Of a DNA stretch of 64,000 bases, positions 18,769-63,673 are shown one piece after another. Source of the stretch: Physcomitrium patens (taxonomy: Eukaryota; Streptophyta; Bryopsida; Funariales; Funariaceae); NCBI RefSeq assembly GCF_000002425.4, contig NC_037273.1, forward strand, positions 12,949,129-13,013,128, written 5' to 3'. The notes under the pieces were generated by a model. The model saw only the letters and a program-made list of their open reading frames with translations. It did no database searches and was not told the origin of the DNA. The position numbers and the translations under genes were made by a program. Numbering within the stretch: the first letter of the stretch is position 1; every line of letters begins with the position of its first letter.

Positions 18769-19122
18769 TCAATACCAACGCAAGAAAATGAAAATCTGTC
18801 GCATCACATCCACTATGAATTCCAATTGTTGTTCGAGAGGCAAATGATTCATCGGCCCTTGGAGCCAACGGTAGTGACCAACACCTTCAACCTCTGACCA
18901 AGCGTGGACTTCTGTGTCTTCATTGTGAAACTGTCCTCCAAATACACCTTCTGGCTGACCGTCGTAGGCAGGCTCGACCTCAAATACAATTACTAGCGAT
19001 CTGTTGCTTGGTATCCTCCGACGTCGTCGTGGTGCAGGCGGTTCTTCATCTCGCGGTCGTCTTCGTGAGCTAGTCGCTTGAAATGACATAACAAGTGTAG
19101 TATCTTGACTATCCATGTCCAA
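18769..19122 (-). CDS. E1 extra ORF between integrase and 3' LTR (117 aa, function unknown)
   Basis: This is an intact 117-codon frame starting MDMDSQDTT, with an Arg-rich segment (SSRRRPRDEEPPAPRRRRR) at about residues 18-36, then a beta-rich part (SLVIVFEVEP), the motif GHYRWLQGPMN at about residues 82-92, and a hydrophobic C-terminal helix. It aligns over its whole length with the ORF at 32,095-32,517 in E2: shared TL-x-x-S, RRR-x-RDE, LVI-x-x-E, W-S-x-x-x-G-x-GHYRWL and the closing I-x-FL. A decayed version lies at 45.24-45.55 kb. I do not recognise the family. The Arg-rich N-terminus suggests nucleic-acid binding or nuclear entry, which is only a guess. It is the one E1 frame without a stop. 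Confidence 0.75.
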   Translation of the reverse strand: MDMDSQDTTLVMSFQATSSRRRPRDEEPPAPRRRRRIPSNRSLVIVFEVEPAYDGQPEGVFGGQFHNEDTEVHAWSEVEGVGHYRWLQGPMNHLPLEQQLEFIVDVMRQIFIFLRWY

Positions 19123-19233
19123 AGGCTAAAATGATGAGAGCAAACTATAGTTGCTAACAAAGTTCTACACTAGCGAACTATGGGTTTTGGAGGTGCCCTC
19201 CTCCCTACTTGATGAGCAAGCTTCAGCAAGAAG

Positions 19234-23711: not shown

Positions 23712-24001
23712 TTTAACGTCTTAACCTTCGGCTAACCTTCAGAAAGAAGAAAAAAGAGTTTTGACAAGAGGACAATATTGGTTCAGAGGAGAGTACTCCA
23801 CAACCTCTAAAACGCCTTAAGACTCCAAAATGAGGGGTAATCCACTCTCTCCAAGAAGAATAAGGCTCCAATATTGAGAAAGAAGAGATATCAGTTTAGA
23901 AGAGGGTAATCCGCAACCTCTAAAACACTAGTACACCTTCAAGAAGAGGGGTAATCCACTTTCTAACAAGAAGGAACTAGCTTTGATACCAGTGAAAATG
24001 C

Positions 24002-24012
24002 AGTCTCGACAA
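24002..24012 (-). other. E1 self-primer binding site (11 nt)
   Basis: On the element strand TTGTCGAGACT begins 2 nt inside the 5' LTR edge. It is the exact complement of AGTCTCGACAA in the same LTR at 24,150-24,140, placed where transcription should start (32 nt after the first T of TATATATA at 24,182). Complementarity extends to 12 nt. This replaces a tRNA-binding site and matches the Tf1 self-priming layout. Confidence 0.75.
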
Positions 24013-24014
24013 AC

Positions 24015-24447
24015 TGTCACGGACACAAAATACAGACTTGAAATCTAACAAGAAGTTCAAGAAGAAGTGGCAGAACTAGATTAAACAGATGAGTACAAGA
24101 ACAACACTAGAAAGGTGGGCTAGAACTCTAAGAGATGTGTTGTCGAGACTGAAGAACCCTTCAGCCTCGACTCCTATATATACTACTGAATAGGAAGCTT
24201 CTCGAGCTACTTCCGCTAACTAGGACGCTTCTCCAACAACTTCTACTAATTAGGAAACTTCTCGAGCAACTTCCTAGAATCTATCAAAATATTCTAGAAC
24301 CTTCTAAGAATATTCTAAAACCTTCTAAGAGAATCTTTAGGGAATATTCTAATAATCTTCTAGAACCTTCTAAAGGAATCTTTAGAGAATCTTTAAAGAA
24401 TATTCTAGAAGAATATTCGAAGAATCTTCCAATGTATGTCCATGACA
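24015..24447 (-). repeat. E1 5' LTR
   Basis: This LTR is 433 bp. It carries TATATATA (24,175-24,182) and the predicted RNA start (24,150). A 13-bp inverted repeat lies around the start: arms 24,142-24,154 and 24,159-24,171, 4-nt loop, one G.U pair as RNA. It drives transcription leftward. Confidence 0.95.
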
Positions 24448-26750: not shown

Positions 26751-26755
26751 ATATG

Positions 26756-27285
26756 TGTCACGGACATACATATAATTACCTATATGAATAGATAAAAGTA
26801 TGTAAAAGTAGGTTAATTGTGTAATATCTTCTAGAGAAGCTTCTTAGAAGCTTCATAGACGCTGTTTTGACTTTATAGGAGTCTATAGTTGACTTTTAGG
26901 TTAAAAACTTGGTCAACAAGTTAGCCATGTGCCACGCATGTTGGAAGCTTAAAGAACAAGCTAACTACGTGGTCCATCCATAGAAAACTTGCCTTGCAAG
27001 CAAAGGCATGTGGCCTAGAAAGTCAACATATATTGGAGGTCTTATAGAACATCGCCATGTGGCTTCTAGTTAGATAGTATATATAGAGGCAAGAGTGAAG
27101 CCCTCTTCACTCTTGTCAACTCCTTTCTTGCTTCTAGTCTAGTTTCAAGGGTCTCTAGTTTTCTTGTATTTTGGCAATAGCCATTCCAGTTTCTTTCTTA
27201 ATATACATATTTCTATTTTGTCCTATTTCTTTTTGAGAAAAGTCTCACTTACTCTTTAGCTTTCATCGAGTTCTTGTCCCTGACA
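26756..27285 (+). repeat. E2 5' LTR
   Basis: This LTR is 530 bp, from TGTCACGGAC to CCCTGACA. It contains the promoter: TATATATA at 27,078-27,085 and the predicted RNA start at 27,109. An 11-bp perfect inverted repeat (27,090-27,100 and 27,105-27,115, loop CCCT) spans the start. The U3 part includes a GCTTCTTAGAAGC palindrome near 26,839. Confidence 0.97.
27078..27119 (+). promoter_or_regulatory. E2 LTR promoter, RNA start and self-primer sequence
   Basis: TATATATA at 27,078-27,085 puts the start about 31 nt on, at A27,109. The first 11 nt of the RNA would be ACTCTTGTCAA (27,109-27,119), the exact complement of the site at 27,288-27,298. The start lies in the right arm of a hairpin whose left arm is upstream of the start and so absent from the RNA 5' end. 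Confidence 0.7.
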
Positions 27286-27287
27286 GA

Positions 27288-27298
27288 TTGACAAGAGT
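27288..27298 (+). other. E2 self-primer binding site (11 nt)
   Basis: TTGACAAGAGT starts 2 nt after the LTR edge, where a primer-binding site must lie. It matches no tRNA 3' end I know but is perfectly complementary to the predicted RNA 5' end. The 2-nt gap equals that in E1 and fits removal of two bases by integrase. Confidence 0.8.
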
Positions 27299-27497
27299 AC
27301 ACTTACAATATGAGAGCTTTGTCTTTTCTTGATTAAGAGTGGATTACCCCTTTTTCTTGATAAGACATAAGCGCATTAGAAGTTGCGGATTACCCTCTTT
27401 TAAACTGATATTGTTCTTAGTATTTTCTTTGTTATCAATTCCTCTCTTCTATTTGTTTTGAGCGTTATTAGACATCTTCTCTTTTCTAAGTGCTACT

Positions 27498-28505
27498 ATG
27501 GCAGAGCTTGTTGAAATGAAGAGTGCAATGGCACAGATGCAAGAACAATTGAGGGAGTTAATGCTTGCGATGCATCAACTCAATTTACCACTACAAGGAG
27601 CAACAAGAATGGTAGGAAGTGAAGATATAGAGATGATTGGGGCTGCTTCAACATCTGCACCAAACCATGTCCCTTCTCCCAGAATGGAACACCCTTCGAG
27701 TGTTAGAGAACCGAGAGTTGCCTTGCCCGAGAAGTTTGATGGTACCAGATCCAAGTTTCGAGGATTCATCAATCAGGTCCAACTAGTGATTGAACTTCAA
27801 CCCCAGAGCTATCCAACTCCAGGGTCACAAGTAAGATTCATTGGTACACTTCTTTCAGGTTCAGCATTGTCATGGTTTTCATCTTTTCTTGAATGACGAG
27901 ATCCAATATTGGATAATCTGGAGGCTTTTTTGGCGGAGTTTCGATCCATGTTTGGAGAACATGATGCAATTCGTGTTGCAACCAACAAGATCCGTATTTT
28001 GCGACAAGGCAATCGATCAGTAACATTATATGCTTCGCAATTTCGACAACTTGTAACTGATATCAAGTGGGATGATGCCGCACTTGTGAGTCAATTTCTC
28101 TACGGATTACAATATGAGGTAAAGAAATTGATGCTTAATTTACCTGATCCTCAAACATTGAGTCAAGCAATTGACTTTGCTGTGAAGTGCGACAATCGAC
28201 TTTTTGAATTTCGATCCGAGAGTCGCACAAGTGGGCCTCAACGTTACTACAATTCAATGGCAACACCGATGTCTCCTCAACACATACCTTCGGAAGTAGA
28301 GGATATGCAAATTGATGCGGTACGTTTCAAACCTCTTACTGAGCAAGAAAAGTCTCGTCGTCGACAAGAAGGATTGTGCTTATATTGTGGAGAACCTAAG
28401 CACACTGCTCAACATTGTCCAAAGAAGCGACGTAACTACAAAATGAGGAGTACGGCTGTCAAAGAAGACAGTATGTCGGAAAACGAGTACGTCCAGCTAC
28501 AATAG
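27498..28505 (+). pseudogene. gag: E2 gag
   Basis: The frame starts at MAELVEMKSAM (27,498) and ends at TAG 28,503-28,505. One in-frame TGA at 27,894-27,896 stands where E1 sequence continues, consistent with a CGA-to-TGA change. It has a coiled-coil-like N-terminus, a gag core (REPRVALPEKFDGTRSKF, then LRQGNRSVTLYASQFRQL) and one zinc knuckle CLYCGEPKHTAQHC near 28,376. About 335 residues if whole. The leader between LTR and start is 212 nt with no upstream ORF of note. Confidence 0.92.
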
Positions 28506-28521
28506 GGACCGTGCGGCTGGA
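28478..28521 (+). promoter_or_regulatory. E2 presumed gag-pol -1 frameshift element
   Basis: GGAAAAC (28,478-28,484, codons GAA AAC in gag frame) is followed by 8 nt, then CCAGC (28,493-28,497), which pairs with GCTGG (28,516-28,520); the outer U-A pair extends the stem to 6 bp. The gag stop is in the loop. The layout is the same as in E1. The -1 frame encodes RPATIGTVRLE across the gag stop, matching RPATVGTVRLD in E1. The P-site re-pairing at GAA/GGA is not ideal. Confidence 0.55.
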
Positions 28522-30859
28522 ATCTTGTACAACTTCTAATAAAGGTCCTATCCTCTCCTCAAAACCATCGCCTTGTTTTATAATAAATGTGCGTTTAGGA
28601 CCTAATAATTACAAAGCCTCTGCCTTGGTAGATTCAGGAGCCTCATCTTGTTTTTTAGATGAAGAATTTGCTAGATGTCATAGAATATCATTAATACAAA
28701 AAACTAAACCTGTACACATAGAAGTCATAGATGGTCGTCCGTTGTCTTCTGGAGATGTAACTCACGAAACACTTCCTGTAGATGTAGTAATAAATGGTCA
28801 TAGTAGTTGCGTAATTTTTAATATAATTAGATCTCCCTCTAATCCAGTAATTTTAGGCTTATCATGGTTAGAAAAGTATAATCCTCGAATAGATTGGATT
28901 TCTCGTAAACTTGATTTTCCTCAGAGCATTAGTAACGGTTCTATTAACCAAGTAAAAAACCATGAGTCTAGTATAGTAAAACTCACACCTATAGGTGCAA
29001 AAGCATTTATACACGCAGCAAAAGAAGGATCAACTTTTGCTATTTATGCTGCACCTATTTCTGAAAGCGTAAAGACTTTAAGTGGCATTCCAAGTCAATA
29101 TCAAGATTATCAAGACGTTTTTGAGAAAAAGAATGCAGATATTCTTCCTGAGCATCGCCCATACGATTGTTCAATCGATCTCAAGGAAGGAACTCAGCCA
29201 CCATTTGGACCAATTTACAGTTTATCGCAAGATGAGTTGGCTGAACTCAAGACATATATTGACGAGAATTTTGCAAAGAATTTCATACGCCATTCAAAAT
29301 CTCCAGCAGGAGCTCCAATTTTATTCGTAAAGAAAAAGGATGGATCTTTACGAATGTGTGTTGACTATCGAGGACTCAACAAGATCACAATCAAGAACAG
29401 GTATCCATTACCTTTGATATCAGGACTCCTTGACCAGTTAAATCAAGCTAAGATCTATACAAAAATAGATCTAAGAGGAGCATATAATCTAGTACGGATC
29501 AAAGAAGGAGATGAATGGAAGACTGCGTTTCGAACCAGGTACGGGCATTTTGAATATAATGTCATGCCTTTTGGACTCACGAATGCACCAGCTGCTTTTC
29601 AACATCTCATGAATGATGTATTTAGTGAATTCTTAGACAATTTTGTCGTCTGCTACCTAGACGATATCCTGATTTATTCTAAGAATGTTGAAGAACATGA
29701 AATACATGTTCGTCAAGTATTACAAAAACTCAGAGATGCAGGATTGTACGCCAAGATGGAAAAGTGTGTATTTCACACTACTCAAGTTGACTTTTTAGGA
29801 TACATCATTTCAAATGATGGTCTTATGATGGATTCTAAGAAAGTCCAAACAATCATGGATTGGAAGATTCCAAAGACTGTGAGAGATGTCCAATGTTTCT
29901 TGGGATTTGCCAATTACTATCGGATCTTCATCAAAGACTTCTCACGAGTTGCAGCTCCACTTACACGCTTGACTAGTAAAGATAAATTCCAATGGAATCA
30001 AGAAGCGGAAGCAGCATTTGAAGCCTTGAAGACATCGTTTGTCTCTGCACCAGTCTTATATCGTGTTGATTTTTCCAAGGCATTTTTTATGGAAACAGAC
30101 GCATCGGATTTTGCCTTGGGTGCAGTTTTATCACAAATGGGAACAGATGACAAACTTCATCTGATAGCTTTTCATTCAAGAAAATTCTCAGCAGCCGAGA
30201 TCAATTATGAGATCCACGATAAAGAACTTCTTGCAATCGTGGATTCCTTTCAAGAATGGCGTCATTATCTAGAAGGTGCTTCTAGTCCAGTCACTGTGTA
30301 TACAGATCACAAGAACCTCGAGTATTTCATGTCAGCACGCGTGTTGAATCGTCGTCAAGCTCGTTGGAGTATGTCTTTGTCAAGATTCGACTTCATTATC
30401 ACTTATCGGCCAGGAAAACAACAAGGTTTGTCCGATGCCCTGTCTAGACGTTCTTATTTTGCACCAAAAGAAGGAGATGCAGCTTTTGAGCAACAAAGAA
30501 CGGTCCTCTTGAAACCAGAGCAATTTCATCTCCGAGCAGTGAAATCAACATTGACTGTTGATTCAACTTTTCTCAAGCAAATCCAGTCCAGTATGTCCTC
30601 AGACCCTCTTGTTCATGATATCGAGAATAATTCTTCCAAGTCTCATGATTCTTCTAAGTTCGAGTTCAAGAATAATCTATTATATTTTGAAGGACGCCTA
30701 TATGTTCTAGAAGGAAAAGCACGTTTGCGTGTTCTTCAAGCACGTCATGACTTTCCAGCAGCAGGGCACTTTGGATATAATAAGACTCTGGAACTCATAT
30801 CAAGAGATTTTTGGTGGCCACAAATGTGGAAGTCAGTCAAAGACTTTGTACAATCATAA
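28506..30859 (+). pseudogene. pol: E2 pol: protease, reverse transcriptase, RNase H, integrase zinc finger
   Basis: The frame is open from upstream of the gag stop to TAA 30,857-30,859. It has protease LVDSGASSCF (intact DSG), reverse transcriptase KKDGSLRMCVDYRGLN, MPFGLTNAPAAFQ and VVCYLDDILIYS, and RNase H FFMETDASDFALGAVLSQ plus YTDHKNLEYF. The integrase HHCC finger follows; the TAA falls where E1 has its first finger Cys (FVQS-stop-NICSRSK). No ATG is near the frame start, supporting production as a gag-pol fusion. Reverse transcriptase and RNase H copy the element RNA inside particles; protease cuts the precursor. Confidence 0.95.
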
Positions 30860-30952
30860 AATATTTGTTCAAGATCAAAAATTCCTCGACATCGACCTTA
30901 CGGACTTCTTCAGCCATTACCTATACCAGAACAACCATGGTCTTCTGTTTCT

Positions 30953-31999
30953 ATGGATTTCATCACAGATCTTCCAAACTCAAGATCTTATGATTCTATA
31001 TTTGTGATAGTAGATCGTTTCACCAAGATGGCACATTTTATGCCATGTACAAAATCTATCACAGGTGAAGAAACAGCTAAGCTTTTCATTGATAATATCT
31101 ATCGCTATCATGGATTACCTAAAGATATCATATCGGATAGGGGAACTCAATTTGTGTCAAGATTCTGGAGGACTCTTTTCAAGATTTTAAAAGTGGACAT
31201 AAAGCTATCTTCAGCTTTCCATCCTCAAACTGATGGACAAACAGAGCGCGTAAACCAAGTCTTGGAACAGTATTTAAGGTGTACCATCAACTACCAACAA
31301 GATGATTGGACAAACCTTCTGCCATTGGCAGAGTTTGCTTATAATAATACGGTACATTCTTCCACGCAACAAACACCTTTCTTTGCCAATTATGGCTATC
31401 ATCCACGACTTGATACTTTTGATTTTTCAAAAGTTGATAATCCTGCAGCAGAAGATATGGCAAATCGGTTGTCAGAGTTACATGCAATAATGAAGGCGCA
31501 GTTGAAGAAAGCTCAAGAACGACAAAAGATAAATGTAGATGTATATCGTAAAGAGCAACCACAACTCAACGTGGGTGATAAGGTATGGCTACTTCGTCGC
31601 AATATCAAGACCACTCGACCGTGTGACAAATTGGACTATAGTAGGCTTGGCCCCTTTTCTGTTTCTGAACAGATCAACCCAGTTGCATATCGGTTACATC
31701 TACCGGAGTCAATGAAGATCCATCCTGTATTCCACGTGTCTCTTCTTGAACCATATAAGACAGTGGATATACAAGGAAGAAGACAAATGCCACCGCCTCC
31801 TATAGAAGTAGATAATAATGAAGAATTTGAGGTGGAAGAGATATTAGACTCAAGGCGGCGCCGAAATAAGCTGGAATATCTTGTTTATTGGTGCGGATAT
31901 GATATTAGTGAGCGCACATGGGAGCCATCCAAGAATCTAGCAAATGCATCAGCTAAAGTCAAAGTTTTTCATCAACGACATCCATCAAAACCAAGATGA
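30953..31999 (+). CDS. pol: E2 integrase core and chromodomain (same frame as pol, after one stop)
   Basis: The intact 348-codon stretch contains MDFITDL (Asp 1), ISDRGTQF (Asp 2) and QTERVNQ (Glu), a complete D-D-35-E triad. It continues with KVWLLRRNIKT, HPVFHVSLLEPY and a chromodomain (EEFEVEEILDSR, EYLVYWCGY, ERTWE). It is in the same frame as the upstream pol ORF and starts 94 nt after its TAA. The ATG at 30,953 is internal to the ancestral polyprotein, so this is not a natural start. Unlike E1, all catalytic residues are present. Confidence 0.93.
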   Translation: MDFITDLPNSRSYDSIFVIVDRFTKMAHFMPCTKSITGEETAKLFIDNIYRYHGLPKDIISDRGTQFVSRFWRTLFKILKVDIKLSSAFHPQTDGQTERVNQVLEQYLRCTINYQQDDWTNLLPLAEFAYNNTVHSSTQQTPFFANYGYHPRLDTFDFSKVDNPAAEDMANRLSELHAIMKAQLKKAQERQKINVDVYRKEQPQLNVGDKVWLLRRNIKTTRPCDKLDYSRLGPFSVSEQINPVAYRLHLPESMKIHPVFHVSLLEPYKTVDIQGRRQMPPPPIEVDNNEEFEVEEILDSRRRRNKLEYLVYWCGYDISERTWEPSKNLANASAKVKVFHQRHPSKPR

Positions 32000-32094
32000 A
32001 AACCTCTCTTATAAAAGAGACAAGATTGAGGCAAGATAACATTCAATTTCCTATCCTTGTTTATAAATTCTTTACATTTTGTGACGCTAATTAG

Positions 32095-32517
32095 ATGGAG
32101 AGCCAACAACCAGCGGATTCAACTCAAGAACCTTCGTTTGCTGACTTACCGGATGAGACATTACGATTGTCACAACCTTCAAGACGACGAAACCGAGATG
32201 AAGACCCTCAAGAACGACATGTTCTTCCTCGAACAGATGGTGAGATACAACGCGTTTGGTATCACGACCTTGGAAGAGATTCTCGATGTTTGGTGATATT
32301 ATTGGAGATAGGAACGACTCCTGATGGTCTTTCAAATGTATTATTTGAAGGAAGTTATGAAGGCCTCAACAGTGATCAAATAACAGGGTGGTCTTCTCGC
32401 CCTGGAATGGGACACTATCGATGGCTAAGAGGACCCATCAACTATCTTCGAAGAGAACAAAGATCAGAGTATGTAGCAAATACAATTCGCCGCATATTAG
32501 ATTTTCTCAATATATAA
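32095..32517 (+). CDS. E2 extra ORF between integrase and 3' LTR (140 aa, function unknown)
   Basis: The intact frame starts at MESQQPADS, 95 nt after the integrase stop, and ends 42 nt before the LTR. It shares with the E1 ORF the TLRLSQPS/RRR-x-RDE N-terminal part, a CLVILLEIG strand, the GMGHYRWLRGPINYL block (about residues 107-121) and an Ile-rich C-terminal helix ending DFLNI. No transmembrane segment, signal peptide or zinc motif is visible, so it is not env-like. Keeping this frame open while gag and pol have stops, in two diverged families, argues that it is a real gene. Translation would need a subgenomic or spliced RNA or reinitiation; none is evident. Confidence 0.75.
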   Translation: MESQQPADSTQEPSFADLPDETLRLSQPSRRRNRDEDPQERHVLPRTDGEIQRVWYHDLGRDSRCLVILLEIGTTPDGLSNVLFEGSYEGLNSDQITGWSSRPGMGHYRWLRGPINYLRREQRSEYVANTIRRILDFLNI

Positions 32518-32545
32518 TCACCGCTCCTCGTGGAACTCGTCCCTA

Positions 32546-32558
32546 GAAGGGGGGGTAA
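32546..32558 (+). other. E2 polypurine tract
   Basis: AGAAGGGGGGG followed by TAA lies immediately before the 3' LTR TGTCACGG. This is the expected primer for plus-strand DNA synthesis. Confidence 0.8.
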
Positions 32559-33088
32559 TGTCACGGACATACATATAATTACCTATATGAATAGATAAAA
32601 GTATGTAAAAGTAGGTTAATTGTGTAATATCTTCTAGAGAAGCTTCTTAGAAGCTTCATAGACGCTGCTTTGACTTTATAGGAGTCTATAGTTGACTTTT
32701 AGGTTAGAAACTTGGTCAACAAGTTAGCCATGTGCCACGCATGTTGGAAGCTTAAAGAACAAGCTAACTACGTGGTCCATCCATAGAAAACTTGCCTTGC
32801 AAGCAAAGGCATGTGGCCTAGAAAGTCAACATATATTGGAGGTCTTATAGAACATCGCCACGTGGCTTCTAGTTAGATAGTATATATAGAGGCAAGAGTG
32901 AAGCCCTCTTCACTCTTGTCAACTCCTTTCTTGCTTCTAGTCTAGTTTCAAGGGTCTCTAGTTTTCTTGTATTTTGGCAATAGCCATTCCAGTTTCTTTC
33001 TTAATATACATATTTCTATTTTTTCCTATTTCTTTTTGAGAAAAGTCTCACTTACTCTTTAGCTTTCATCGAGTTCTTGTCCCTGACA
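32559..33088 (+). repeat. E2 3' LTR
   Basis: This LTR is 530 bp and differs from the 5' LTR at four places by eye (in the GACGCTG, GGTTA, CATCGCCA and CTATTTT stretches). It is followed by ATATG. Confidence 0.97.
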
Positions 33089-33121
33089 ATATGTCATTCA
33101 AAGCTAAATATACAAATATTC

Positions 33122-35640: not shown

Positions 35641-36407
35641 TGTAGAATAGATATTAGTTTGTTTTTGTAAGATATTAGTAAAATAAAATAATAGTCTATA
35701 GAATAGTCAGTTTAGGAGGACAGATGATTGATTCAGATATTAAAAGTCGTTATTATAGGATTACGGTTAGAATCTGGAAATTAGTAGCAATAATATAGAA
35801 GTTGTAGAAGTTTGTCGGGGGCCAGACTGTGATAGTTATGAGTCGGGGTTAAGCTTGGTGCTTCCTCTTTGTTTTTTTTGTTTTTTTTGTTGTTGAAGAA
35901 TAATGGATAGTTTCTGAATACTGAGAAGTGAGTCTGTGGAATAAATCAGAGATTGATTTATGAGTTATTGATTATGTAATTGGAGTATTGAGTGATTGAA
36001 TTATATGAAAAGTTATTGGAAGATTGATTATGGATGGAAGATTATGATTGTTGTTTATTGAGAGTTGTGTGTGTGTTTTGACAAAGGAAGTCTCTGATTA
36101 CAGGAATTCTGTGAATTCAGATTGATTAGAGTGAAGTCTATTATTCCTGGTGTTGGATGGAATTTATTGAGTTTTGAGCGGTCTTTTGAGAGTGCAGGGT
36201 TGCACATTGTGGTTATCAGTTGATGAAGGAGTATTGTTACTGGGAGAAAGCATTGTAGTATTTCTTAGTATTTTAGTGGTTTGGAATATAGTTAATTGTG
36301 TTATCCTAACAAGTGAAATTCATGCGCTTAGTCTTTCCATGTGTTCGAATTCCCTTATACAGGTTTATTCTGGAAGGAATTGTAGAATAAATAAAACGAC
36401 AATCACA
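35641..36407 (+). repeat. Element T 5' LTR
   Basis: This LTR is 767 bp and paired with 42,809-43,575. It begins TGTAGAATAG and ends ACAATCACA. No clear TATA box was assigned. Confidence 0.95.
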
Positions 36408-36410
36408 TTT

Positions 36411-36428
36411 TGGAGCCACTGTCGAGGA
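36411..36428 (+). other. Element T primer-binding site, tRNA-Asp-like
   Basis: TGGAGCCACTGTCGAGGA, 3 nt after the LTR, matches 13 of 18 positions of TGGCGCCGTTGCCGGGGA. I recall that as the usual tRNA-Asp primer site of Tat/Athila elements. The mismatches are mostly C-to-T or G-to-A type. Confidence 0.6.
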
Positions 36429-36959
36429 TTGACAATAACATTGAGTGTTATGAATTAACTATTGGATGAGTAGATGGAAAATAGGAAACAAATTCAGTAG
36501 TATATAATGAAAGATTATAGTTATTAAGAATGAAAACATTGCAATAAAGAAAACACGCTAGTTGAAAGAAAGACAAGAGAGAGCGCAAGCAAGAGAATCG
36601 TTGCAAAACAAGCAAGAATTCAAGTTAAAAAGAAAGCATCGACAAAGTTGGATTAAGCTATGGTTGCATGCCTATTGGCATATCCGAGTATACTCAAAAG
36701 CTGATCGACATCAAATATTTTAGCAATATATACCATTAAGAAAATTGTTGAGAGCACTCGAAGGGAATTTTGTCACCAACCCAGCGTATCTCTTGAGCTT
36801 GTAAACTGTAAGTGGAAGAAACACAAAAGAATTGGGTACTCCATTGGGTACCTTCCCAATAGCAGAAACTACTGATTCTGTAAAAACAGGTTCCGTAGAA
36901 TGGCATAAATTCCTTGCCAATAAGGACTAATTTAGCATATTTCAAAATCCATCATTTTT

Positions 36960-37865
36960 ACCTCCAATTCAACTAATAAACTTATTTAGGGATAATAATA
37001 GTAAATTAAGGAGGTTAGAAAGTCTAAAAAAGATAATTGGAGAAGACAGTGGTAATTTTAATAAGAGATTAAGCAGCACATTGTCCTCTTCAATTGTGAC
37101 GGGTAGTCCAGCGGTTCCAATAGCAGTACAAATGGGTGATGTGAGCGATTGCACAATGAGCGTGGTTCCATTACCTACTTTTAGGGCTTTTGGGGTGCGG
37201 ATTTCGATCAACATTTGTCTCAATTTTTGACAGCATGTGCAGCTAATAATGGAAGAATCGAAGATAATTGGTTACGATGGTTGCCAATAACCTTAAAGGA
37301 CACGGCATTTGAATGGTACAATTGCCAACTAGTGGGTCAATTTCGGAATTGGAAAGCATTGAATAATACATTTTTAACCCATTTTTGGCCAATAGGTTTT
37401 GAGGTTTGTCTTCGAGAGAGGTTAATGAACAACAAAATGATCCTAAGGGTGGCGATAGAATCGTATTATGGTCGGGTGGCTGATATACTAAGTAAGTGGC
37501 CAAATCACCAAATATCGGAGGCATTTATCTTATCCATATTAATCAATGGTTTGCAACCACTTAAGTTAAAAATGTTTGTGAAGGAAGCTCAACCTGTTAC
37601 GGTGTTTGCATCCCTTAATAGAGCCAAGGTTTGGGAGGAATGCCATTATGATCAATTTTTAACTACGAGAGCTACGTTGATTCTAGTTCAAGGCAGTTAT
37701 CAAAATCTGACTTGGAACGGATCAGTGGGTGCTTATCCACGGATGTTAGATACAAGGGCGAATTCCAAAGCCAATATTCAGAGGCCAGTTAATGTCACTC
37801 CATTGCAAGCTATACCACCAAACATGACAACAATGTATGCTCCCTATTTTTCGTATCAACAATAA
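36960..37865 (+). pseudogene. gag: Element T gag core
   Basis: The open stretch at 37,215-37,865 encodes HLSQF/FLTACAANNGRIEDNW and LKDTAFEWYNC (the retrotransposon gag core), then QISEAFILSILINGLQP. The N-terminal part is in other frames upstream to about 36,960. The frame ends at TAA 37,863 before the zinc knuckles. Confidence 0.8.
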
Positions 37866-38394
37866 GCATTAACTGCGATAGAGTTACTAATAATACCAAC
37901 CTCAAAAGATTCCAATGAAGCCTTGTTGTTGAATTTGATGAAGAAAATGGAAGAAATGGCCGTCAATATGACCAAGGATAAGGAGAAGATGTAAAAGCCT
38001 ATCAATACTAGGACCACCCTCACAAATGATGGATCAATGTATATTTTGCGGAGGAAAGTACTTAACAGCTAATTATTGGAATTTGCAAAGGCAACAACAA
38101 TTCAGTAATCAAACCATGATCCCACCAACTCACTAGGACGTCAATTAAGTTCAATCAAAAAATACGTTTGGATGGAATAGAAATCGATCTAATCGATAAA
38201 ATTGAACATTCAATAACTTTCAAAGTTCTAATTTTAATCAGAGGTCTGTATCAAATCCCAAGAACTACGGAAAAGAGCAATAGAGGTATCAGCAATATGA
38301 TCCACCGGCGTCATCGAACCAAGTTTCCTCCATTCCAACGGGACAACCAAGATCATTTTCTAACCCTACATGGAACAAGTCTAGTAGGTATATA

Positions 38395-38715
38395 TTGGTG
38401 GAGACACCCAATATGCCTGATGGGGGTGCAAGAAGACCACTTCGTTGTTTTTATTGCAAACAGATTGGCCATTATGCCAGTGAATGTCCCAATCCCAAAG
38501 CTAGTGACGATTATGCGCCAGTTTGTAGAAATTGCAAGCAGTCAGGGCATACTTATCACCAATATAATACTTCGTTCAATTTCAATAATCAAGATCAGCA
38601 GATCCAAAACCAAGGAAAAATGAAGGAGATAAATCAAGGTCCTAAAGATTCTCTAGTAAATCAGATGGAATGTATCCAAGCCGTTCTTAATAGGAGTCAG
38701 CAAAAAAGAAAATGA
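38395..38715 (+). pseudogene. gag: Element T nucleocapsid part with two zinc knuckles
   Basis: CFYCKQIGHYASEC is a complete CCHC knuckle. The second, CRNCKQSGHTYHQYN, has Tyr where the last Cys belongs, so it is damaged. It is followed by a short Gln/Lys-rich end and a stop at 38,713. Knuckles bind the element RNA during packaging. Confidence 0.8.
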
Positions 38716-38919
38716 CCAATTCAACATTTGGTTGATCTTGAAGCAAAGGGCCAATTTGACCCAATTATGGGGACATCCAATCTAGGTCGTGTTATAGGCC
38801 TCTTACCCAGTATGAGACCTGACTCGGTTGGGCTACCCAATGAGGTACCGATTACGGAGGCTTCGGATCCATTTCAAGCTGTTCCGTTCTCTACATAGTT
38901 TTGAGAAACGTCTTTTCTA

Positions 38920-40059
38920 TTGAAAGATCCTCTAGGAGGCGTGAATTCCAAGGAAGCTCCGTCTACTGTTCTAATTCTGAGTCCAGGGCGGAAGAATATC
39001 TTACCTCAAGGAGTTAAACTCCAACCAATGAAAAGAAAGAGGGCATTGGGCATTACCTTAAATATGGAATCCTATGACATATTGAAGGATCTGGATACTA
39101 TTCGGCCTTCTATTTCTATGAAGCAACTTCTAGCGGTTGCACCAAAGTGTTGTTCTACATTAAATTCATCGTTAACATGGCATAAGCAATGTAATAAAGA
39201 AGTTTGTGAAGTCAGTTTGAACCTTGACCCAAATGCACCAACCATCGATGTTTTAATTGATGGTGTTATGATCTCGGGTGTTTAGGTGGATGGTGGTTCC
39301 AATGTCAATTTAATGAATGCTGATACAATGGATGCTTTAGATTTGGAATACTTAGTACCCACGACATTGATATTATGGATGACAAATCATAGCCAGGTTA
39401 AACCAATGGATATTTTACAGAGTGTTCAAACTATAATTGCTGGTATTGCATATGGAATTGACTACATTGTCTTTTGGCTACAACGTTTGACTTTATCATA
39501 TTTAATTTTATTGGGACAACCTTGGCTTTATCAAGCGAAGGCCAAGAACGATTATGATCGGGGTATTTTGATAATTGGCAAGGGCGGAGACAAAATGGTA
39601 TTAAAAATGTACCTAGTATGCTATCTCAGGGAGTTTCAATTGCCAGCATCTGAATTGACGTCAAACAATGAGCTTAGCTCTGATGACGACGTAGTCATAC
39701 CGATTACGGAGGCATCCGTGGATGCAACACAATACCCTAGAGTGGTATACCAATGTAGAAGTCCAGAGGAGTACTTGATATATCCGATAGATTTAGAAAA
39801 CTCTGAGTATGTTAATATTGATTGGATGACCAAGTATGATGTGCACCATATCAGTGCTCAAGACATAGGATTCAATACTTCACACATGTCGGATGTATCA
39901 ACTGATTTTCAACCAACATGGGAGTTGAAACAGAACATCGCCATTGCACTTTTATGTCAAACTATTAACTTGGCGAGTACAATAGAACCTCGGACAATTA
40001 AGGTCTACAAAGGTATTAAGGATCAGGAGTTGACCTGTTGGACAGAATTTTTCTTGTAG
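38920..40059 (+). pseudogene. pol: Element T protease region
   Basis: Two adjacent frames (38,920-39,285 and 39,286-40,059) are separated only by TAG at 39,283. They carry a retropepsin-like active site VDGGSNVNLMN (DGGS in place of DTGS) and ILLGQPWLYQAKA, the closing Gly-Gln-Pro-Trp block. The linker to reverse transcriptase is 40,060-40,197. Confidence 0.75.
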
Positions 40060-40197
40060 CATAAGTCCGCTTTTGCTTGAACTTATGCTAATTTAAAGGA
40101 TATTCTCCCTGATGTCTGTGAGCATCGTGTCATTTTAGAGGAGAACGCTAAACCAGTACGGCAAAGAAAATATCGCCTTAATTCTAAATATTCTCTC

Positions 40198-41410
40198 ATG
40201 GTGAAGGAAGAATTAGACAAGCTTCTTGCGGTTGGTTTTAATTACCCAGTACCGAATAGCGAGTGGATTTCTCCAATCATGATGGTGCCGAAAAAGAATG
40301 AAAAAATCCGCATTTGTCAGGATTTTCGAAAACTTAATGCGGCCACCAAGAAGGATTACTTTCCGTTGCCTTTCACAGATAGTATTTTAGACGTCATAGT
40401 GAGTCACGAATGTTATTCGTTCCTCGATGGATTTTTTGGATATAATCAAGTTCAAATTACAATGAAAGACCAGCTTAAGATGACCTTTACTACGGATTGG
40501 GGCACATTTGCTTATCGCATGATACCTTTTGGATTATGTAACGTCCTAACCATGTTTCAGAGAGTGATGACTCAAGCCTTCCAAGACTATCTCTGGTTAT
40601 TTTTGGAGATCTTTTTAGATGACTTTTGTACATTCAGTACAAAACATGATCATCTTAATTATCTAGGTAAATGTTTGGCTCAATGTGTTAAGTTTGGAAT
40701 ATCATTGAACTTGAAGAAGTATCATTTTGGTGTTCCATCCGGTAAATTATTGGGACATATCGTCTCCAACCATGGTATTGCTACGGATCCTGACAAAGTG
40801 CAGCATATAATGAACTTGCCCCAACCAGAGACGGTCTTCGGTGTTCGTGGGTTTGTGGGCCATGTCAGTTATTATCGAAGATTCATTCGTTTGTTTGCAG
40901 TTATTTGTCAACCTTTAACGAACATATTAAAGAAACCTCCGTCAGATAGGACTAGTCCCATCTGGACTATGGAGTGTACCATGACCTTTGAAGCATTGAA
41001 ATCAAAATTGGTCTCTGCACCAATATTGGTGGCTCCTCGTTGGATGGAGCCCTTTCATGTGTACGTTGATGCATCCAATGTGACTATTGGATCGGTGTTA
41101 AGTCAGAAGGATGACAAAGATTTGGATCATCTTATCTATTATGCCAATCGGCAATTGGTGGCTGCCAAACGCAATTACACTACTACTGAACGAGAAGCGT
41201 TGAGTATGATATACTCGGTTCAGAAATTTTAGCACTATTTGCTTGGATATCCATTTGTTTTTTATGTGGATCATGATGCCATCAAATACATGATTAATAC
41301 ATCTCAATTGAGTGGATGCAATGTCCGATGGGTCTTACTATTACAAGAGTTTAATTTTACCATTATCGTATGACCTGGGAAGGAACATGCCAATGTTGAT
41401 CATTTATCCC
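40198..41410 (+). pseudogene. pol: Element T reverse transcriptase and RNase H
   Basis: The open 344-codon stretch has ICQDFRKLNAATKKDYFPLP, MIPFGLCNVLTMFQRVM, and EIFLDDFCTFS as the catalytic box (FLDDF). It continues with LLGHIVSNHGIATDPDKV and, in RNase H, VYVDASNVTIGSVLSQ. A TAG at 41,230 interrupts the RNase H, which goes on with FYVDHDAIKYMI and, after a TGA, PGKEHANVDHLSRL (to about 41,415). Confidence 0.9.
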
Positions 41411-41689
41411 GGTTGTCTAATATTCTTGGCAACGAGCCTGTCCCGAATGCTATTCCCAATGCCAAATTATTTGTGGTGGATGTGATTTTCCTCGAGTATA
41501 GTAAAATCATTCAGTTTCTGACCTTCCACACCTTTCTGCCGACTTTCACCGAGAAGCTTAAGAAGCAACTCATTCTGAAGAGTGCCCCGTACACAATAAT
41601 TCGCAATGCTTTGTATAAACATGTAAAGATGGTATTTTACATCGATATATCTTTCCAAGTGAAGTACAGTCGATCCTCGAAGGTTGCCA

Positions 41690-42722
41690 TTTGGATAATT
41701 GTGGTGGTCATTTTGCGAGAGATAGTACCGCTCGTAAGGCTTTAATGGTCGAATATTGGTGGCCCACAATGTTTTCTGATGTGGACCAATTTATTTGTCA
41801 TTGTGATCCCTATCAACAAATTGGTCGACTCACGGGCACTTTTGCGATGCCGTTAGTTCCAATCTTAGCACAGGCACCGTTCAAAAAATGGGGTATTGAT
41901 TTTGTTGGTCCCATTGCACTAGCGTCAAAACTTAGCCAGAATCGATATATTTTAGTTGCCACGGACTATGTAACAAAATAGGCAGAGGTTATTGGTACGT
42001 GCCATAATAATGCCAGTACAGTACCTATGTTTCTATATGAAAATATTATAACTCGATTTGGGTGTCCAAAGGAATTGATTAGCGATCGCAGCACCCATTT
42101 CCTAAATGCTACCATAGCTGCCTTGATGAACGCATATGAGATTAAGCATCAAAAAACCACTTCATATCATCGTCTTGCTAATAGGCAAACGAAAAAGATC
42201 AATGAAATTTTGTGCAAGGTCTTGACTAAGACAGTTTTGGGGGTGAGTATCGATTGGGAGACCAAACTCTTTGCGGCTTTGTGGGCATATCACACCACAT
42301 ATAAAGTAACTATTAACTCTACTCTGTTTCAACTAGTTTACGATCAAGAGGCAATTTTATCCATGGAGTTGGAGGTTCAAAGTTTATGGATTGTCTTGGA
42401 TGAACGACTTAGTGACAAAGAATTATTACATTCTCAATTGGCAAAATTGGAAGAATTGGATGAAATACGGACTACAGTTCTTTTTTACATAGAAGCAACT
42501 CAAAAACGGAGGAAGAGTTACTATAATAATAAACTGCGTCCAAAGATTTTTATGTCCAATGATTTGATATTACTATACGATAGCCAATTTAATCATTTTT
42601 CGAGAAAATTTCAAGTTTGTTGGCATGGGCCATATTGGGTGATTGAAGGTTTTTTCAATGGGTCTATCCAATTGGAGGATTTCATAGGCCATCACTTTAG
42701 TACCCACATTAACGGGAATTAG
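41690..42722 (+). pseudogene. pol: Element T integrase
   Basis: The zinc-finger part is decayed (CHCDPYQQIGR at about 41,797). The core has KWGIDFVGPI (Asp 1), YILVATDYVTK followed by TAG in place of Trp, and LISDRSTHF (Asp 2). The third block RQTKKINEIL has Lys-Lys where Glu-Arg is expected. The C-terminal part runs to 42,722 without a chromodomain. Inactive as seen. Confidence 0.85.
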
Positions 42723-42808
42723 TAATTTTGTAGAGTTTTGTTAAGTTGTTTTTAGATAGGAATCAATTGTGTGTTTGCGAGGACACTGCACAAATAGGAG
42801 TGGAGCTA

Positions 42809-43575
42809 TGTAGAATAGATATTAGTTTGCTTTTGTAAGATATTGATAAAATAAACTAATAGTCCATAGAATAGTCAGTTTAGGAGGACGGATGATTGAT
42901 TCAATTATTAAAAGCGGTTATTATAGGATTATGGTTAGAATTTGGAAATTAGTAGCAATTATATAGAAGTTGTAGAAGTTTATCGGGGGCCAAACTGTGA
43001 GTTATGAGTCGGGGTTAAGCTTGGTGCTTCGTCTTTGTTTTTTTTTGTTTTCTTTGTTGTTGAAGAATAACGGATAGTTTTTGAATACTAAGAAGTGAGT
43101 CTATGGAATAAATCAGAGATTGATTTATGAGTTATTGATTATGTAATTTGAGTACTGAGTGATTGAATTATATGAAAAGTTATTAAAAGATTGATTATGG
43201 ATGGAAGATTATGATTGTTGTTTATTGAGAGTTGTGTGTGTGTTTTGACAAAAGAAGTCTGTGATTACAAGAATTCTATGAATTCAGATTAGTTGGAGTG
43301 CAGTCTGTTATTCTTAGTGTTGGATGGAATTTATTGAGTTTTGAGCGGTCTTTTGAGAGTGCAGGGTTACACATTGTGGTTATCAGTTGATGAAGGAGTA
43401 TTGTTACTGGGAGGAAGTATTGTAGTATTTCTTAGTATTTTAGTGGTTCATAATACAGTTAATTTATGTGACCCTAATAAGTAAAACTCATGCGCTTAGT
43501 CTTTTCCTGTGTTCGAATTCCCCTATACACGTTTATTTTGGAACAAATTGTAGAATAAGTAAAACGACAATCACA
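42809..43575 (+). repeat. Element T 3' LTR
   Basis: This LTR is 767 bp and paired with 35,641-36,407. It is preceded by AATAGGAGTGGAGCTA, a weak polypurine tract, and followed by the CTTTT duplication. Confidence 0.95.
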
Positions 43576-45592
43576 CTTTTGTAAGTTTCTTGATGATTTA
43601 TTTATTTATTATCTTATATTCAAAAAAAAAGATATAACTTTTAATCTATATATATATTTTTTGAAGTTGAAGTATTTTTATCTTTAAGTAATGAAATCAA
43701 TATTAATTATTGATTTAATATTTCTTAATCAAGCTTTATCAAATATGTCCTTAAGTCTTCTTATTTATGATATTAATATTAATTCTTCTAAGTTTCATAA
43801 AAATTCTAAGTTTGAATTTAAGAATAATCTATTCTATTTTGAGAGACAATTATATATTCCAAAAGGTGAAGCATAATTATGTGTCTTTCAAATTTATCAC
43901 AACTTTCTATTAGTTTGATATTTTGGATACGAAAAGACTTTGGAGCTAATATCTAGAGATTTTTGGTGGCTTCAAATATGGAAGGCAGTCAAAGACTTTG
44001 TATAATCATGTAACAATTGTTCAAGGTGAAAAACTCTACATCATTGAACTTATGGACTTTTTAAGCCATTACTTACTTTAGAACAATCACGGTCCTTTAT
44101 TAACATGGATTTTAACACAAATCTTCTAGTCTTATGTTTGTATAATTTTGTATTTATAATAGTAGATTATTTTATTAAGATAGTATATTTTATATCATAT
44201 ATAAAAACTATTATAAGTAAGAAAATAACTAAATTTATTCTTAATAACATTTATCTCTATTATCAATTGCTCAAGGATATTATATCAAATAATAAGACTC
44301 AATTTGTATCAAGATTTTGAAGAACCCTTTTTGAAATTTTAAAGGTCGATGTTAAGCTATCTTTGGCTTTTTATCCTTAAACCAATAGATAAACAAATCA
44401 AGTATATTAAATTTTGGAATGATATATGAAGTATATCATCAAACATTAAAAAATTAATTGGATAATTTTTTACCATTGATAAAATTTATTTATAATAATA
44501 TGATATTTTTTTATATAATAATTTTTTAATTAGGATTATTTTCTACAACTTGATACTTTTGACTTTTCAAAAGTTGATAATTATGGAGCAAAAGATTTGA
44601 CAATTTGTTTATCTATACTATATATAATATTAAAGGTATAATTAAAAGAAACTCAAGAATGATAAAAGATCATTGTAGATGCCTATTACATGAATCAACT
44701 TCAATTCCATGTTGGTGATAAGGTATAATTACTTCGTTACAATATCAAGATTAGTCACTTTTTTGACAAGTTAGATTATCATAGGCTTGAATCATTTTTT
44801 ATTTGTGAGCAAAGCAATTGAGTTGTTTATTGATTACATCTACCAAATTCTATGAAGATCCATCTTATATTCTACATATATCTTGTTGAATTATATAAGA
44901 GAATAAATATCTTAAGAAGAAGATAAATACTACTTCTTTTTATAGAAGTAGATAATAAATAAGAATTTGAAATAGAAGAAGATTTAGACGTAAGGTGGTA
45001 CTAAAATAGATTAAAATATCTTATTTATTGGCCTAGATATGATATTAATGAATTCACATGGAAATTAATTAAGAATCTTTCAAATACAAGAAAGAAAATT
45101 GATGCTTTTTATCAATGATATCTATCAAAACTAAGATGAAGAATATCAAATCTTTGCTATAAAAAAAATGTGATTTAAAAAAGATTATATTTTATTTTTT
45201 TATCTTTGTTTATAATTTTTTTGTATATGTATTGCTAAGGAGATGGTATCTAACAACTTGCAAATTCAACTCAAGAGCTATCATTTACTAACTTATTATG
45301 ACCTTGAGAGAGACTCTTGATGTTTAGTGATTGTATTACAAGTAAGAATAATTTCTGATGGTCTTATAAATGTTTTTATTGAAGGAAGTTATGAAGGCCT
45401 CAACAACAGCCAAATAATAAGGTGATCTTTTTAATCTAGAATAAAATATTATCAATGATTAAAAGGACCTATTAACTATCTTCATAGGAAATAAAAATTA
45501 GAGTATATAGCAAACATAATTTGTTGCATCTTGGACTTCCTCAACTTATGTTGATTGTTCTTCATAGAACTTGTACTTAGAACGAAGGATAA
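43576..45592 (+). pseudogene. pol: Fossil E2-family copy A, right piece (RNase H end to extra ORF)
   Basis: It aligns with E2 from about 30,540 through integrase and chromodomain to the 3' LTR. It covers the linker (43,690-43,876, FEFKNNLFYF), the integrase core (44,105-44,320) and chromodomain traces near 44,960-45,070. A decayed copy of the extra ORF lies at about 45,240-45,550. Stops are frequent, and changes are overwhelmingly C-to-T and G-to-A. An integrase frame of 71 codons is the longest left. Confidence 0.85.
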
Positions 45593-46105
45593 TGTCATAG
45601 ACATATATATTTACCTTGATAAAAAGTACTAGGTAGAAAATAAATATAAATAGATTTGATATTATCTTGTGGCAAAGCATTTTAGAAGCTTTATAGATGC
45701 ATATTTGACTTTATACATGTTTATAGTTGATTGGTAGGTGAGAAACTTGGCCAACAAATTAGCCATGTGTTACATGTAGGTAGCTTGTAATATAAGCTAA
45801 CAATGTGGAGTGCATATAAGAAACTTGCCTTACAAATTAAAACATGTGTTTTGTAAATTGGATACATGTTAGTAGTCTTATATGATATTGATACATAGCT
45901 TTTAATTAGATAGTATATATGGAAGTAAGAGTGAAGCCTTCTTGACTCTTATCAATGCCTTTTTAGTCCTTAGTCTTATTTGAAGACTTTCTAGTCTTCT
46001 TTTCTTGGACACGAGCCATTTTAGTTCAATATATTACTATCTTTGAGTGATTTTCTAGTCTTTTTGAGTGATATAAGAATATATTGAAATTTTTTTTTTT
46101 TTTTG
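45593..46105 (+). repeat. Fossil copy A 3' LTR (E2 family)
   Basis: It starts TGTCATAGAC (E2: TGTCACGGAC) and follows E2 LTR order: GACTTTATA, GCCATGTG, a TATATAT box near 45,913, and ACTCTTATCAA (45,945-45,955) at the RNA-start position. The inverted repeat around the start is still visible, with its outer pair changed to T-A. The right edge is blurred by a T-run. Confidence 0.8.
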
Positions 46106-63133: not shown

Positions 63134-63660
63134 TATCATGAACATACATATTTATTCTAATAATTACCTAAATGATTAGGTGGAAGAAGATGAAAGTATA
63201 TTAAATTTATAATATCTTCTAAAGAGCTTTTTAGTAGCTTCATAGATGTGATTTTGACTTTGGACATGTTTATAGGTTAGAAACTTAGTCAATAAGTTAG
63301 CCACATGTTATATATGTTAGTAGCTTGTGGAAGAAATTAACTACGTGGCACACATATAAAAAAATTACCTTGCAAATTAAGACATGTGTCTTACAATTTG
63401 AACATGTATTAGAGGTCTTATAGAATATTACCATGTAATTTCTAGTTAGATAGTATAAATGAATGCAAAAATAAAGCCTTCGTCATTCTTGTCAAACCTT
63501 TCTTTTTATTAGTCTAGTTTTAAGAATACATACTCTTTTTATTTTTAGCAATATCCATTCTAATCTTAATACTAGATTATTTTTAAAATAAATAATTATT
63601 TTTTAAAAATTAGATAGTATTATTTTAAAATTTTTATTATTTTGATTTATATCATTAATA
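63134..63660 (+). repeat. Decayed E2-family LTR (5' LTR of an element running off the window)
   Basis: It starts TATCATGAACATACATATTT (E2: TGTCACGGACATACATATAA) and follows the E2 LTR through AATATCTTCTA, GACTTTGGACATG, TTAGCCACATG and TAGATAGTATAAATG. The 527-bp length nearly equals the 530 bp of E2. It ends 2 nt before a primer-site-like word at 63,663. Confidence 0.85.
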
Positions 63661-63662
63661 AT

Positions 63663-63673
63663 TTGACAAGAAT
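63663..63673 (+). other. Self-primer binding site of the decayed E2-family element
   Basis: TTGACAAGAAT lies 2 nt after the LTR edge. It is perfectly complementary to ATTCTTGTCAA (63,485-63,495) at the RNA-start position of the same LTR. Both differ from E2 by one base, at paired positions. Confidence 0.65.

Follow-up and report, generated by a model that had tools for sequence, protein, structure and literature searches.

E2 and its relatives in the window

The window is a stretch of 64,000 nucleotides from the moss Physcomitrium patens, and at 26756-33088 it carries E2, an LTR retrotransposon of 6.3 kb. Self-blastn placed the 5' LTR at 26756..27285 on the forward strand (+) (TGTCA...TGACA, 530 bp) and the 3' LTR, 99.2% identical to it, at 32559..33088 (+). 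A 5-bp target-site duplication (TSD), ATATG, flanks the element at 26751-26755 and 33089-33093. Within the 5' LTR is a TATA box, TATATATA, at 27078..27085 (+), and 31 nt from its first T at 27078 stands ACTCTTGTCAA (27109..27119, +), the putative self-primer and start of R; judging only by this TATA spacing, the RNA of E2 would begin at 27109. The LTR ends in TGACA at 27285 and is followed by a 2-nt gap, GA (27286..27287, +), and by TTGACAAGAGT (27288..27298, +), the candidate self primer-binding site (PBS). The first-pass annotation had described the two 11-mers as perfect reverse complements, with a gap of 2 nt from the LTR edge to the PBS and a presumed start 31 nt from the TATA box, and each of these details was found to be right. 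A second copy of the 11-mer lies within the 3' LTR at 32912-32922.

The gag frame of E2 is at 27498..28505 (+) and the pol frame, placed by Pfam and ORFs, at 28436..31999 (+). Both have an in-frame stop in the window copy (27894-27896 and 30857-30859); there are genomic relatives whose pol frames are open over 1185-1189 codons. Pfam finds protease, RT, RNase H, integrase, SH3_Tf2-1 and chromodomain in pol. The ORF list adds an extra ORF of 140 aa between pol and the 3' LTR (32095..32517, +), and a polypurine tract read from the sequence adjoins the 3' LTR (32545..32558, +). The best 40 of 1395 first-look candidates for the E2 query were all at least 99% identical, and because of this the E2 family seems to have been recently active. 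Elsewhere in the window, the PARP-type ORF at 481-1155 has a protein of Ceratodon purpureus as the one named relative among 11, at 74% identity, and this points to a moss host.

Three relatives of E2 lie in the same window. E1 represents a second family, 70% identical to E2 in Pol, with its 5' LTR at 24015..24447 on the reverse strand (-). Its self-primer AGTCTCGACAA (24140..24150, -) is 32 nt from the TATA box, and its self-PBS TTGTCGAGACT (24002..24012, -) is 2 nt (GT) inside the LTR. E3 is a truncated relative with R ACTCTTATCAA at 45945 (+), for which a PBS was looked for and none was found. E4 is a degenerate relative at 63485..63673 (+), with ATTCTTGTCAA at 63485-63495 and TTGACAAGAAT at 63663-63673. 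E1 and E2 also have other parts in common. The extra ORF of E2 and an E1 ORF in the corresponding place between pol and the 3' LTR (18769-19125, -) are both about 120-140 aa and look alike by eye (GHYRWLxGPxN), with no family assigned, and the leader from PBS to gag contains repeated GTGGATTACCC / GCGGATTACCC blocks in both (27336-27425 in E2, 23790-23965, -, in E1), which are perhaps a packaging or translation signal.

Complementarity between R and the primer-binding site

Shuffled LTRs were used to evaluate how often such a complement would arise by chance. The shuffles kept LTR dinucleotides and were scored for a complement to a stretch whose first base lies 0-5 nt in from the LTR edge; agreement with TATA+31 is left out of the figures. 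For E2, a complement of at least 10 nt appeared in 12/2000 shuffles and one of at least 11 nt in 1/2000, while for E1, where 12 nt were observed, at least 10 nt appeared in 0/2000. Allowing at most one mismatch, the E2 11-mer has 9 sites in the window against 1.69 expected, and six of the nine are the putative self-priming feature in E2, the E2 3' LTR, E3 and E4. The distance from TATA to R is 31 nt in E2, 32 in E1, 31 in E3, 31 in E4 and 31-33 in the contaminant loci described below. An element at 35641-43579, whose LTR edge is tentative, has the ordinary layout, with TGG 3 nt inside the LTR and a self-complement of at most 5 nt. A shuffle did once reach 11 nt for E2, but that the two 11-mers match by chance is hardly credible, and it is refuted by the relatives, since E1 repeats the match and so do other families whose letters differ.

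The first-pass annotation had made co-variation of the two 11-mers in family members one of the points on which its proposal could fail, and the 11-mers do co-vary. Those of E1 and E2 differ at three positions, and the PBS compensates all three. Further compensated variants occur in locus L073 (AGTCTCAACAA with TTGTTGAGACT) and in L142, and other families have perfect 11-12 nt complements with different letters. E4 was set aside as proof of co-variation, having one compensated site only, possibly from two independent C-to-T type changes.

Loci across the genome were then grouped by how they had been selected. The best 30 E2 loci all had perfect R:PBS complementarity, with ACTCTTGTCAA and the gap GA in every one, a figure that adds little because the query contained both 11-mers. 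Where loci were selected by pol and the PBS lay outside the query, complementarity was perfect in 10/10 (L076-L085), in L105 and in six of the seven loci L106-L112. Twenty loci (L056-L075) came from a U3/R pattern with the PBS outside it: 15 were perfect, two had one mismatch (L066, L075), and in three no self-PBS was found. The pattern TGAAG-N4-CTTCA-D-N6-CAA bars C at R position 2 and so leaves out E2's own R, which makes decayed copies overrepresented among its E2-like rows. It matches 6788 times in the genome (470,438,890 bases) against 17 for the reversed pattern, a measure of abundance and no test of the stem, because the pattern fixes the hairpin tip.

The last set was 20 loci chosen for an unusual R, which may or may not lie in 5' LTRs: two were perfect, three had one G-U at R position 2, three had an imperfect PBS (L049, L050, L054), and in 12 none was seen. 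In L038, L046 and L047, R ATTCTTGTCAA faces PBS TTGACAAGAGT with a G-U pair, which is neither support nor an exception. L049 and L050 are E1-like copies with imperfect self-PBS TAATCGAGACT and TTGATCGAGACT, probably decayed or tolerated variants. The fit of R and PBS is imperfect in L049, L050, L054, L066 and L075. The gap between LTR and PBS in relatives is GT, AT, GC or GA. Searches with P0035, P0010, P0025 and P0020 gave E2-like and E1-like subfamilies, as judged by position and fetched places, and no third family was seen in them among the roughly 40 best candidates scored, so its absence is not shown. Loci L001-L005 from a post-PBS pattern were dropped; L001, the sole one checked, was without an upstream 11-mer.

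Prokaryote assemblies were scanned for contaminants, which gave 18 relatives, 15 of them with at least 350 nt before pol. Four of the 15 combine a self-complement of 11-12 nt with an upstream TATA and with an LTR end, CA, that lies 0-3 nt ahead of the complement, and the shuffle mean for loci with a complement of at least 9 nt is 0.04 loci; in the remaining 11 the LTR edge was not placeable, so they were counted neither way. The self-primer is AAGGCGAACAA in L088 and L090, and in L089 it is a 12-mer, ACTCTTGATCAA, fairly close to the E2 11-mer; the best Pol segments of L088-L090 are 53-57% identical. L091 has the E1-like AGTCTCGACAA and is 72% identical. Ten more places were taken from L088's assembly, and four have a self-PBS (L134, L135, L142, L141); L141 shares a contig with L089, L134 with L102, and L142 with L093. 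Candidate self-PBS in L095/L115, L100/L120 and L101 were rejected as 9-11 nt matches that were chance or unplaceable. Viral contigs were searched with the E2 RT and with A1, and no relatives were confirmed. As a side observation, eukaryotic chromovirus contigs sit inside cyanobacterial and other bacterial assemblies (L086-L103, L113-L142), and one Trichormus MAG appears heavily contaminated because 100 matching stretches were found in it.

A conserved motif follows the self-PBS of E2 at 27309..27318 (+). It reads TATGAGAGCT in the window copy and TATCAGAGCT in 26/30 E2 loci, and it is kept directly after the self-PBS while its flanks vary. This raises the question of whether tRNA-iMet is the true primer, annealing some 25 nt in from the LTR, at the TGGTATCAGAGC / TATCAGAGC motif. 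The PBS expected from the tRNA-iMet of the host itself, TGGTATCAGAGCGAGGTT, has the same core as the motif; L053 and L059, of one E1 subfamily, match its first 12 nt exactly, with TGGTATCAGAGC complete; and the 9-nt core, sometimes altered, is found in 16/16 distinct post-PBS stretches (L036-L085). However, the site is about 25 nt from the LTR end, yet the 3' LTR of E2 abuts the TSD. No tRNA-iMet PBS starting with TGG was found 0-5 nt from the LTR in E2, and the TGG that would pair with the CCA end is absent from the motif in E2 and in 12/16 distinct stretches, being present in 4/16. The motif is also absent in L088-L091, and a tRNA primer would leave the co-varying self-PBS unexplained. Weighing both sides, priming by tRNA-iMet is very improbable, and TATCAGAGCT may instead be a relic or a tRNA-annealing site. 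The TATCAGAGC motif (27309-27318; complete in L053 and L059) could mislead PBS-calling software.

A hairpin across the U3-R junction

The inferred start of E2 lies inside a hairpin at 27088..27117 (+), with a 13-bp stem and a 4-nt loop, identified from an RNA fold of -19.7 kcal/mol and from co-variation across families. Its U3 arm is at 27088-27100, its loop at 27101-27104 and its 3' arm at 27105-27117. The 3' arm joins the terminal 4 nt of U3 to the initial 9 nt of R, which makes the 5' arm a further complement of the primer, this one carried by U3. An identical 30-mer in the 3' LTR (32891..32920, +) is the copy expected in full-length RNA. The same geometry is seen in E1 (24142..24171, -), L091, L088, L090, L134, L135 and L142, and, with one mismatch and -11.2 kcal/mol, in E3 (45924..45953, +), and over the hairpin families the stem is 12-13 bp with a 4-nt loop. 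The arms of L088, L090, L134, L135 and L142 are unlike those of E2, with the geometry still kept, and the R of L088-type loci has only its first A and final CAA in common with E2. In E4 the hairpin is lost (-2.1 kcal/mol), and L089, with a self-PBS called in the same way, has no start-site hairpin (-4.7 kcal/mol).

Ten representatives were aligned to evaluate the pairing, five of which are one family, so the rows are not independent. Over these, 123/130 cells pair, against a mean of 84 and a maximum of 98 in shuffles, and shifting the partners by one or two columns leaves no more than 65/130 cells paired. Two-sided change is seen in 12/13 hairpin pairs, a level reached by 2/2000 shuffles. Extra pair types are not unusually numerous, with 580/2000 shuffles reaching their number. 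In 7/9 representatives the computed energy of the hairpin is -18.6 to -22.8 kcal/mol and that of R:PBS -14.4 to -16.2, which makes the hairpin more stable by 3.0-6.9 kcal/mol; the margin is 1.1 in L073 and there is none in L089.

The locus L142 has R AAGGTGAACAA, PBS TTGTTCACCTT and a U3 arm changed to match, a three-way compensation relative to L088. In L073, R and PBS changed together, the U3 arm is unchanged and the hairpin is weakened. This last locus fits the possibility that the U3 arm is a functionless by-product, which arose when aberrant reverse transcription copied the primer in inverted orientation, as R and PBS moved there without the arm, and nine arm bases do match the PBS (with one G-U variant in E2 and E1). 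Such an origin seems quite improbable all the same: the stem runs 3-4 bp further into U3, beyond any PBS match, a pair in this U3-internal stem changes on both sides between L088 and L134, and the arm tracks R in E1, E2, E3, L088 and L142.

A more serious rival is that the hairpin works on DNA or at transcription, where the palindrome would fix Pol II initiation or alter the promoter and be unrelated to priming. In the hairpin families it covers the inferred start, and its spacing from TATA hardly varies. But L088-type arms are unlike E2 arms, which makes sequence-specific protein binding unlikely; G-U pairs are tolerated in the arms of E2 and E1, which fits RNA better than DNA; and a promoter palindrome has no need for its 3' arm to contain primer sequence. 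A purely transcriptional role is judged unlikely, while still to be taken seriously.

The effect of the U3 arm was modelled by folding the leader and the 3' end together, joined by a 12-N linker. With the arm free, the 3' R is in the hairpin with P of at least 0.98 and captures the PBS with P 0 in E2, E1, L076 and L088. Keeping the arm from pairing lets the 3' R occupy the PBS, with P 0.61 in E2, 0.94 in E1, 0.05 in L076 and 0.96 in L088. In these values the competition is exaggerated because the linker brings the ends artificially near, and in L076 the arm makes almost no difference. The model suggests that the U3 arm can matter for capture of the PBS by the 3' R; it does not establish that the arm does. 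Pairing of the 5' R with the PBS, with the arm free, is predicted at 0.00 in E2, 0.48 in E1, 0.84 in L076, 0.91 in L088 and 0.00 in L089, and the E2 value is unstable because a shorter stretch gave 0.85 versus 0.00 with the longer one. The stability of the whole leader is not above shuffles in E2 (z -0.35) or in E1 (z -0.45, for a piece that began 6 nt late). No consistent helix was found between the TATCAGAGCT motif and the LTR.

Proposed mechanism and known systems

The complementarity, its position, its co-variation and the geometry of the hairpin are seen directly in these loci. E2 is best explained as a moss chromovirus of the Tf1/sushi branch which very probably primes with the first 11 nt of its own RNA. 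From the RNA start through folding to the RNase H cut and priming, we infer the following course. The E2 RNA would begin at 27109, and its first 11 nt would fold back onto the PBS, 2 nt inside the LTR. By analogy with Tf1, the element's RNase H would cut after nt 11, and the freed 11-mer, as RNA ACUCUUGUCAA, would prime minus-strand DNA. In Tf1 the self-primer reportedly escapes removal (Atwood-Moore 2006, cited in PMC6317226), and given this the co-variation of R with PBS could, by analogy, be templated, which leaves the U3 arm unexplained.

A self-primed RNA contains the primer sequence twice, once per R, and using the 3' copy would remove the strand-transfer acceptor. The U3-R hairpin, if it acts as a lock, answers how the 3' copy is avoided, and it is directly testable. 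In RNA its formation would be confined to the 3' LTR and to transcripts begun too far upstream. Because the full-length RNA begins at R, the 5' primer copy would be without the U3 arm and free to reach the PBS, while the 3' hairpin would conceal the second copy from it. With the 3' copy locked, only a correctly started 5' end would prime, and the 3' R would stay intact for strand transfer. That the hairpin hides the 3' primer copy in E2 and so leaves priming to the true 5' end alone is a tentative reading to which we give slightly less than even weight. Slightly more tentative again is the general form of the idea, that self-primed chromoviruses carry a start-site-gated primer whose U3 arm, R start and PBS co-evolve as a three-way unit.

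In Tf1 of fission yeast, RNase H cuts the RNA between nt 11 and 12 and the 11 nt released from its 5' end serve as primer at the PBS, according to the account in PMC7175516. E2 is like Tf1 in its chromodomain integrase, in its SH3_Tf2-1 domain and in having an 11-nt complement where its RNA is inferred to begin, and it has the Tf1/sushi trait of a PBS complementary to the first ~11 nt just inside the LTR, with the start placed by TATA. Unlike Tf1, its gag and pol frames are separate, and its cleavage would be as in Tf1 by analogy; the U3-R hairpin is a further difference, as the Tf1 passages cited here do not mention one. An RT tree that includes no Tf1 reference sequence puts E1 and E2 together with sequences from frog and chytrids in a group of 36 rows (100/99); Solanum and Closterium, both long branches, fall outside it. 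By sequence, the RT of E1 and E2 probably belongs to the fungi/vertebrate chromovirus branch.

The fission-yeast elements Tosmo and Tj1 have "pretzel" leaders of three duplexes (excerpts of PMC10085805 and PMC4600332), in which, as described there, the extra duplexes join the 5' LTR downstream of the primer to PBS-adjacent bases. Such duplexes were not convincingly found in E2 or E1: the flanking-helix candidates of 6-10 nt in E2 are not borne out in E1, which has only 6 nt.

Self-priming as a principle is not new here, because Neumann 2019 (PMC6317226), in the part cited, predicts it for the majority of moss and club-moss Tcn1 chromoviruses and for copia TAR elements, using a complement of at least 10 bp that starts 0-5 bp inside the LTR. 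This settles a doubt of the first-pass annotation, which had not been sure whether self-priming had been described in land plants. For Selaginella SM-Tcn1, Novikova 2010 (PMC2864245) reports evidence of neither a self-PBS nor a tRNA-PBS. The passages of Neumann 2019 cited here do not report start-site position, co-variation or the U3 arm, and no description of a hairpin joining U3 and R was found in the literature searched, a scope outside which the primary Tf1 papers fall (e.g. Butler 2001). Relative to that literature, the start-site hairpin and the three-way co-variation are possibly new.

E2 resembles the Tcn1 clade in its non-seed plant host, a moss, and in its chromodomain, which is of group I with the three cage residues Y/F, W and Y (Pfam Chromo; residues read by eye, following the criterion as excerpted from PMC3350952), and self-priming is predicted for Tcn1 in the cited part of Neumann 2019. 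The moss offers near-identical copies of what appears to be a self-primed element, active until recently and found outside the fungi, together with a diverged second family for comparison.
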